Source: Anthocerotibacter panamensis C109 (GTDB taxonomy: Bacteria; Cyanobacteriota; Cyanobacteriia; Gloeobacterales; Anthocerotibacteraceae). From it: a stretch of DNA of 64,000 nt. Of this stretch, positions 56,389 to 57,924 are shown piece after piece; within the stretch, counting starts at the first letter, position 1; every line of letters starts with the position of its first letter. The DNA lies in NCBI RefSeq assembly GCF_018389385.1, contig NZ_CP062698.1:437501-501500 (forward strand), written 5' to 3'. The notes beneath the pieces are model-generated. The model was not told where the DNA came from and searched no databases. It worked only from the letters and a program-made list of their open reading frames with translations. A program made the translations under genes and the position numbers.

Positions 56389-57771
56389 CTATTTAGAATG
56401 AATAGACCCTAATTCCAGGGGGTGGTCTATATTCACGGTATAGCCCTGGGCTCGCAACTGATTGGCTAATTGCTCTGCGTTAGCACTGGCCTTAAAGGCT
56501 CCGACCTGTAGACAGGGGGAGCCGGAACAAGTCTTTGAAAAACTGCGCGGGAACTGTTTTTTGATCTGGCGGACCTGTTCCGACGTGGTAGCGACAACGA
56601 GCACTCGGGCCATCGCATGGCTGTCAGAGAGCGTGGGACTGGCAACTGTGCCATTAGCCGTGACCGGAGCGGGGCGTGACGCAGCCGGGACTATAGTGGT
56701 CCGAGGCTTGGCCTCCAGAGGAGGAATGATGGTTTGAGGCTTAGGAGGAGCCGCTGCGGCAGAGACAGTTGGAGGCACAATCTTATTGGGTGCTGGTTTT
56801 TGGAGGGCAGGACGGGCAATGGGTGCAGCTTGAGGACTGCTGGCCTCTTTCTGCTCCTCCGGCTGGACTGGGATATTCTGTTGCGCTTTCTGCTCCTCCG
56901 GCTGGACTGGGATATTCTGTTGCGCGGCAGATGGAGAGAGCCCTGCCAGGGAGTCCAAGGCTGGATCTTCTTGTAGGTGGCTAATTCCTTGCCAGCCCAA
57001 GGGAATCCCTAAAGCGAGAAGCGCGGCCACGGCTCCCCCGATCAGAAGACCCCGAGAGGTAGGAGCAGCGAGATGAGTCCCCTGCTGGCTGTACCACTGG
57101 CGGAATCCTTCTCGCTCTAGGTCGAGGTCAAATTCCAAGCCCTGCAAGGTAAGCTGCAACTGCTCGTCTAGGTCGTCCTGAGTATTCCAGAAAAGCGTTC
57201 TGAGATCGAGGGGGAGCGTGGCTATGAGGACCTGACGCGCTTGCTGGAGCGAAGAGGCGATTTGATTGACCGGCAAATTCCATTGCTGGTCCGCCATCCA
57301 GCTTTTGATTTGCGCGAGGGACCATTGGTAGGCGTCATGGAGGATCACCACGAAGCGCTGCGGCGGGGATAACTGCTGGAGGGCTTGGTCGATGTAGGCG
57401 AGCACCACTGGGTTTGCGGCAGAAACGGTCGTCAACAGTTTTTGATTGCCCCGCAGGACTTGCGTGAGCGTGTCCGCACTGAGGGCTGTCAGCCAGCTTA
57501 AAAATTTATTCTCCTGCACATTTAAGCGGTCAAGGCGACGACGGACCTGGACCCACACGGTTCCGGCCATAACCTGAGATTGTTGACTGGAAGTGACGAT
57601 GGATTCCACCAAGGAGCGGTAGCGGCAGTAGAGACAGAGGAGGTAGCGGCCTTCCTGCGGATTAGCCAGAGCAAAGCCAATCAGTTCTTCGTCGGTGAAT
57701 TCTCGCAATTGAAGCACAAGCCCCGACTGGCAGGCGGGATCACTGGTTTTAGGGAGTTCACCTGGGGACAT
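56389..57771 (-). CDS. Membrane protein joining a sigma-factor-like domain to a SPOR domain
   Basis: 460 residues. Residues about 24-80 (FTDEELIGFALANPQEGRYLLCLYCRYRSLVESIV) resemble sigma-70 region 2, and 125-186 (YIDQALQQLSPPQRFVVILHDAYQW...NQIASSLQQARQVLIATLP) resemble sigma region 4 with an HTH. One membrane helix lies at about 241-260 (GLLIGGAVAALLALGIPLGW). A Pro/Ala-rich stretch follows with a perfect tandem repeat (AQQNIPVQPEEQK at 283-295 and 296-308). The C-terminus (PCLQVGAFKASANAEQLANQLRAQGYTVNID) is a SPOR domain, which binds denuded peptidoglycan at division sites. Topology puts the sigma-like part inside and the SPOR outside. Confidence 0.8.
   Translation of the reverse strand: MSPGELPKTSDPACQSGLVLQLREFTDEELIGFALANPQEGRYLLCLYCRYRSLVESIVTSSQQSQVMAGTVWVQVRRRLDRLNVQENKFLSWLTALSADTLTQVLRGNQKLLTTVSAANPVVLAYIDQALQQLSPPQRFVVILHDAYQWSLAQIKSWMADQQWNLPVNQIASSLQQARQVLIATLPLDLRTLFWNTQDDLDEQLQLTLQGLEFDLDLEREGFRQWYSQQGTHLAAPTSRGLLIGGAVAALLALGIPLGWQGISHLQEDPALDSLAGLSPSAAQQNIPVQPEEQKAQQNIPVQPEEQKEASSPQAAPIARPALQKPAPNKIVPPTVSAAAAPPKPQTIIPPLEAKPRTTIVPAASRPAPVTANGTVASPTLSDSHAMARVLVVATTSEQVRQIKKQFPRSFSKTCSGSPCLQVGAFKASANAEQLANQLRAQGYTVNIDHPLELGSIHSK
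56848..56925. repeat. 39-bp perfect tandem repeat, two copies
   Basis: Two identical 39-bp units, 56848-56886 and 56887-56925, inside the sigma-like/SPOR gene. Each encodes AQQNIPVQPEEQK on the minus strand. Being in frame and a multiple of three, the copy number can vary without breaking the gene. Confidence 0.95.
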
Positions 57772-57897: not shown

Positions 57898-57924
57898 CAG
57901 AACCCCTGAAAATCAGGGGTTCTG
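57898..57924 (-). terminator. Intrinsic terminator downstream of the porin gene
   Basis: CAGAACCCCTGA (57898-57909) pairs perfectly with TCAGGGGTTCTG (57913-57924) around a 3-nt loop. On the minus strand it is followed by CGTTTTTCG. It lies 22 bp after the porin stop. Confidence 0.85.

Follow-up and report, generated by a model that had tools for sequence, protein, structure and literature searches.

SPOR proteins of the FtsN/DamX/DedD type have a cytosolic N-terminus, one transmembrane (TM) helix, a disordered linker and a C-terminal SPOR domain, and play roles in the divisome. Class I anti-sigma factors (RseA/RsiW/MucA) consist of N-terminal cytosolic sigma-binding helices, one TM helix and a periplasmic sensor, and their genes follow the sigma gene. 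The ECF52 protein SCO4117 of Streptomyces coelicolor, an activator of differentiation and secondary metabolism, combines a sigma domain, a zinc finger, a TM helix, a Pro-rich segment and a carbohydrate-binding domain; ECF52 is limited to Actinobacteria (PMC5826349, PMC8999054). IutY (ECF243) of Pseudomonas putida is a fusion of a sigma factor and a membrane anti-sigma receptor involved in iron-siderophore surface signalling (PMC8999054). The sigma-like domain of PhyR folds correctly as an ECF sigma, though its contacts with promoter and core are degenerate, and it titrates an anti-sigma factor (PMC8103513).

The window, that is, the whole stretch of 64,000 nucleotides analysed here (C1:437501-501500 of the single-contig genome G000 of the early-branching cyanobacterium Anthocerotibacter panamensis C109, 4,187,797 bases), contains an ORF on the minus strand, with its ATG at 57771 and its stop at 56389, encoding a 460-amino acid protein with the layout listed in Table 1. 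ECF52 is the nearest layout, as a sigma domain, a TM helix and a Pro-rich extracytoplasmic linker precede a carbohydrate-binding domain in one chain, and SPOR occupies the place of that domain in the window protein. However, a zinc-finger anti-sigma domain and another carbohydrate module set ECF52 apart: the window protein has a non-zinc helix motif and SPOR, is cyanobacterial and has apparently lost its DNA-binding residues. IutY resembles the window protein in carrying sigma and a membrane anti-sigma receptor in one chain, though its active sigma is released by proteolysis and it is without SPOR. The original prediction that no described system has this layout was thus too strong, with ECF52 (SCO4117) and IutY being close analogues (PMC5826349, PMC8999054), though both read as active sigmas and neither carries SPOR. 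PhyR is nearest in sigma degeneracy, with degenerate DNA- and core-binding regions on a sigma-like domain as in the window family, but PhyR is a soluble response regulator that carries a receiver domain, lacks a membrane or wall-binding part and acts in the general stress response of alphaproteobacteria; no C-terminal receiver domain was found in the window protein by Pfam or AF2. The FtsN/DamX/DedD-type proteins differ in having a short cytosolic part that does not resemble a sigma factor. In a classification of cyanobacterial sigma factors, SPOR is not named in the main text (PMC11119718). Considering these comparisons and the results below, we tentatively favour the reading that the window protein unites in one chain a pair widespread in cyanobacteria, namely, a degenerate sigma-like cytosolic protein and an anti-sigma-like TM-SPOR receptor, which would sense the envelope and give its output by protein contact.

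Table 1. Features of the sigma-SPOR gene and its surroundings (positions are those of the window; residues are those of the encoded protein)
Feature	Residues	Position	Strand	Basis or remark
Main PspA/Vipp1 gene of the genome		48174-48890	+	PF04012; 7.5 kb from sigma-SPOR gene
Whole ORF: sigma-like domain, juxtamembrane helices, TM, Pro-rich linker, SPOR	1-460	56389..57771	-	Layout common to 7 other Gloeobacterales genomes
SPOR domain, β-α-β-β-α-β	385-452	56416..56619	-	PF05036 and AF2
Pro-rich low-complexity linker, predicted periplasmic and disordered	260-384	56620..56994	-	pLDDT ~45
Perfect 39-bp tandem repeat encoding AQQNIPVQPEEQK twice	283-308	56848..56925	-	Exact 13-residue repeat
Single predicted TM helix, N-terminus inside	241-259	56995..57051	-	Kyte-Doolittle mean 2.08
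Juxtamembrane helix motif LQxxLxxL...E...[FY]xxW	205-226	57094..57159	-	Signature of separate TM-SPOR family
Sigma region-4-like helices	121-185	57217..57411	-	Sigma70_r4_2 E=4e-5; 2h27
Sigma region-2-like helices	22-106	57454..57708	-	AF2 helices 27-36, 42-59, 65-82 and 90-106; Foldseek 4lup
Terminator-like hairpin, 12 pairs then T run		57898..57924	-	Between upstream porin gene and sigma-SPOR gene

The C-terminal SPOR domain of the original prediction was borne out by a PF05036 match at residues 419-447 (E=2.8e-6, 28 bits against a Pfam cut-off of 21) and by the AF2 fold, in which the strands and helices at residues 388-449 (pLDDT ~90) follow the order expected of the domain. In the VQVGAF-type strand, the Q is conserved. 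By fold and by score, the window protein is a SPOR protein. Two further proteins of the same genome (L223 1707-3053 and L224 1176-1841, both on the minus strand) have the same type of SPOR domain, the better-conserved half of which is, in all three proteins, the second, opposite to the usual Pfam order. The membrane helix anticipated at about residues 241-260 was also recovered, and an equivalent is present in all eight fusions described below and in the partner proteins examined; the predicted N-in topology of this single helix is favoured by charge in most fusions. The 13-residue tandem repeat noticed in the linker is exact and is underlain by a DNA duplication, apparently a recent one. Because it is absent even from the sister genus, the repeat is incidental, and a role as a functional element was ruled out. 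The strong terminator-like hairpin suggests that the sigma-SPOR gene is a transcription unit separate from the upstream porin gene and thus probably lies outside the SLH-porin unit; the altered gene context in other genera likewise makes membership of the porin operon unlikely.

Of 242 cyanobacteria, 203 have homologues of residues 10-200, which with few exceptions are stand-alone proteins of ~200-290 amino acids (typically ~220). Nostoc, Calothrix and Scytonema have such proteins, and family f4 (small genomes, 1.6-3 Mb) is missing among the matches listed. All nine genomes of Gloeobacterales, the order of the window genome, have a sigma-like homologue, and in eight of them it is fused to TM and SPOR. 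The sigma-TM-SPOR layout is thus kept across eight species, down to ~23% identity, which argues that it is more than chance. In the ninth genome (G002; L032 2721-4184, minus strand), two tandem sigma-like paralogues lie upstream of a separate TM-SPOR gene, which the nearer one overlaps by 4 bp. Adjacent same-strand pairs of sigma-like and TM-SPOR genes also occur in families f7 (G012, G049), f22 (G027) and f25 (G030, G044, G057, G086, G094, G149), and a search for the fusion elsewhere, among 292 genomes sampled from the phylum, gave no full-length match besides the window's own. In a maximum-likelihood tree, fusions and stand-alone proteins grouped together, apart from six canonical ECFs of the window genome (100/99), and the fusion may have arisen either once or twice. 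In most crown cyanobacteria, the sigma-like and TM-SPOR genes lie apart. Downstream of the stand-alone sigma-like gene, most crown cyanobacteria (L004, L007-L009, L081 onward) carry a gene encoding a TPR protein whose N-terminus resembles a signal peptide.

The separate TM-SPOR proteins and the fusion share a cytosolic helix motif, LQxALxxLDxxLxxELxRYRxW, ahead of the TM helix; in the window protein, the helices at residues 198-210 and 216-235 were modelled with a pLDDT of ~93 (AF2). A 34-column profile of the motif had exactly one match per genome in 182 of the 242 cyanobacteria. The motif was present in 181 of the 203 genomes with a sigma-like gene versus 1 of the 39 without (Fisher p=1.4e-27, a value inflated by relatedness, the absences clustering in a few clades of marine picocyanobacteria-like small genomes). 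In the separate TM-SPOR proteins, Pfam finds no domain except SPOR, hence no known anti-sigma domain, and a zinc-finger anti-sigma domain had no Pfam match at E<=10 in the window protein. By analogy with the class I anti-sigma factors, the TM-SPOR half appears to be laid out like an anti-sigma receptor, with a cytosolic helix, a TM helix, a periplasmic sensor and a gene behind the sigma gene, though the pair differs from them in the lack of a Pfam anti-sigma domain and in the degeneracy of the sigma-like partner. It is because of this layout that we read the protein as a fused sigma/anti-sigma-like receptor.

The segments resembling sigma regions 2 and 4, on which the original prediction was built, were confirmed by AF2, Foldseek and profile matching. 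The AF2 model of residues 1-236, built with 55 sequences, had a mean pLDDT of 92.2 and a pTM of 0.87, forming one compact body that includes the juxtamembrane helices. In Foldseek comparisons of this model, region 2 matched 4lup (TM-score 0.80, 1.8 Å) and region 4 matched 2h27 (TM-score 0.76, 1.1 Å) and 3hug (1.1-1.3 Å), and solved ECF regions matched the predicted sigma regions within 1.1-1.9 Å. A profile of 40 homologues matched E. coli sigmaE (1or7, E=1.8e-4) across regions 2 and 4, as well as SigE, SigH and SigJ-type chains. The structural checks thus returned sigma-2 and sigma-4 folds rather than a chain without them, and the window protein has the predicted fold of ECF group 4, in which regions 1 and 3 are lacking. 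Whole-chain superposition on ECF sigmas gave an rmsd of about 10-25 Å; in the model, regions 2 and 4 are each a sigma fold, with a mutual placement unlike that in the ECF structures among the matches listed. In the single-sequence Pfam scan of the window protein, Sigma70_r4_2 scored 23.6 bits, below its cut-off of 25.7, and Sigma70_r2 had no match, while all NCBIfam sigma models were far under their cut-offs. Sigma scores were under the Pfam/NCBIfam cut-offs in nearly all family members scanned, one stand-alone homologue passing that of r4_2.

In a comparison of 55 family members with six canonical ECF sigmas from the same genome, the net charge of region 2.3/2.4 (26 residues from W93 on) was -4 to +1 in the family (mean -1.4) and +5 to +6 in the canonical sigmas, and that of the recognition-helix stretch of region 4.2 was -5 to +3 (mean -0.7) and +3 to +6, respectively. 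The basic 2.4 and 4.2 surfaces that serve -10/-35 DNA are therefore missing across the sigma-like family. The core-binding motif DxxQE of region 2.2 (DLTQEVF-type) was found in none of the 55 members and in five of the six canonical ECFs. Relative to canonical ECF sigmas, the region-4 turn of the window protein has an insert of ~5 residues, and nearly all family members have an insert there; sigma-like members without it occur in family f18 genomes (L024, L029, L039). Stand-alone members show the same loss of basic residues and of DxxQE as the fusions, so the degeneration is not a consequence of fusion. The sigma-like part thus seems to have lost its promoter-binding features, and, because the -10/-35 basic residues and DxxQE are lost and the region-4 turn carries the insert, binding of promoter DNA or RNA polymerase, as assumed in the original prediction, is doubtful on sequence grounds and finds no support. 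The family agrees with ECF sigmas in fold and fails on the DNA-contact surface, the core motif and the family cut-offs.

These losses bear on a working membrane-tethered ECF sigma, in which a peptidoglycan signal would lead to regulated intramembrane proteolysis, freeing the sigma domain to direct RNA polymerase to a regulon, as has been proposed for ECF52 and shown for IutY. The part order of ECF52 SCO4117, the sigma/anti-sigma fusion of IutY, the intact sigma-2/4 folds and the sigma-then-TM operon order, typical of sigma/anti-sigma pairs, would all suit such a protein. However, the changed charge of region 2.4 and of the recognition helix in 55 members, the missing DxxQE, the region-4 insert, the scores under the sigma cut-offs and the lack of a detectable Pfam anti-sigma or zinc-finger domain all argue against it, and we regard it as rather unlikely.

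Where it is apart from the sigma-like gene, the TM-SPOR gene is in most cases immediately followed by one or two PspA/Vipp1 genes (identified by PF04012) and is divergent from dciA, with a same-strand pspA downstream within 4.5 kb in at least 29 genomes. L225-L236, L239 and others show a TM-SPOR gene with the single-copy RYRxW motif immediately ahead of pspA/vipp1 and, in many cases, divergent from dciA. The gene order in G027 is sigma-like, TM-SPOR and pspA, and in G055 the three lie inside one ~6-kb cluster. No SPOR partner of cyanobacterial pspA is named in the available part of PMC11237479. In the window, the PspA/Vipp1 gene lies near the sigma-SPOR gene (Table 1), a proximity that is unshared by the other Gloeobacterales, in which pspA is not near the fusion, and that is probably due to chance. 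Among the neighbours examined, the recurrent genes are pspA/vipp1, dciA and one of crotonase-like (menB) type rather than division genes. Gene neighbourhood thus suggests PspA/Vipp1 envelope biology at least as much as a septal role.

Comparably unlikely, in our estimation, is a sigma fold recruited as a scaffold of the septal or wall machinery, like the cytosolic part of FtsN/DamX-type proteins, without a regulatory role. A short cytosolic part, a TM helix and a disordered linker are typical of divisome SPOR proteins, and both the loss of DNA-binding features and the single-copy, widespread occurrence of the TM-SPOR family are consistent with a scaffold. On the other hand, the recurrent neighbours are not division genes, and the two-gene order, sigma then TM, resembles that of regulatory pairs. 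A septal link through CyDiv (all2320) was rejected, since CyDiv is a DivIC/FtsB-like protein outside the sigma-SPOR family. The second idea of the original prediction, an RNA polymerase decoy in which the tethered domain would capture core enzyme at the membrane in competition with real sigmas, draws on the preserved sigma-2 fold, the main core-binding module, but is improbable given that other residues stand in place of the region 2.2 core-binding motif throughout the family. A gene-calling accident or decaying gene, with two ORFs fused by chance and without selected function, would suit only the recent, species-specific linker repeat, and is refuted by the persistence of the fusion in eight species, in which its sigma, motif, TM and SPOR parts are all conserved.

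The paired reading, by which the window protein joins a degenerate sigma-like protein to its TM-SPOR receptor, is supported by the fusions and adjacent pairs, the co-occurrence, the compact AF2 body, the fold matches, the lost hallmarks, the tree group and the order with pspA. Against it stand the phylogenetic confounding of the co-occurrence, the lack of a nearby pspA at the fusion in the other Gloeobacterales, and the crown genes, which are mostly non-adjacent, with the sigma-like gene often ahead of a secreted-looking TPR gene. We propose the following scenario, in which we infer the docking between the separate proteins, the glycan binding, the direction and output of the signal and the link to PspA/Vipp1. 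The sigma-like domain would be derived from an ECF sigma, with its region-2 and region-4 folds intact and its promoter- and core-binding surfaces degenerate, and the receptor half would be a single-pass protein with a cytosolic docking helix, a TM helix, a long periplasmic linker and SPOR. The sigma-like domain may pack on the juxtamembrane helix and be held at the inner membrane, though the packing in the AF2 model could reflect covalent attachment in the fusion. SPOR would bind peptidoglycan, probably denuded glycan, and a change in the wall or envelope would alter the exposure or the partners of the sigma-like domain. Because the promoter contacts appear lost, output by protein-protein contact is favoured over promoter binding: the domain may titrate another regulator as a mimic, or serve membrane-maintenance proteins such as PspA/Vipp1 as a scaffold. 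The conserved gene pair probably senses the state of the cell envelope.

A more far-reaching and doubtful extension of the paired reading, though one to which we give slightly more weight than to a tethered sigma or a septal scaffold, is an undescribed envelope-stress pathway of cyanobacteria, in which the SPOR receptor would read peptidoglycan and tether a promoter-blind sigma mimic to the inner membrane, wall damage would alter what the mimic titrates, and the wall would thereby be linked to PspA/Vipp1 maintenance or to a true sigma, the Gloeobacterales fusion being the pathway in one chain. The classical PspF/PspBC route of proteobacteria is, to our knowledge, not known in cyanobacteria, and a candidate envelope-stress receptor would therefore fill a gap. 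The Gloeobacterales fusion identifies the partners, and the pair is therefore directly testable in model strains. If the paired reading is true, a single-copy, widely conserved and uncharacterised pair is a candidate cyanobacterial envelope-stress receptor linking the cell wall to a sigma-like protein, and would extend sigma mimicry beyond PhyR to a membrane-bound protein.
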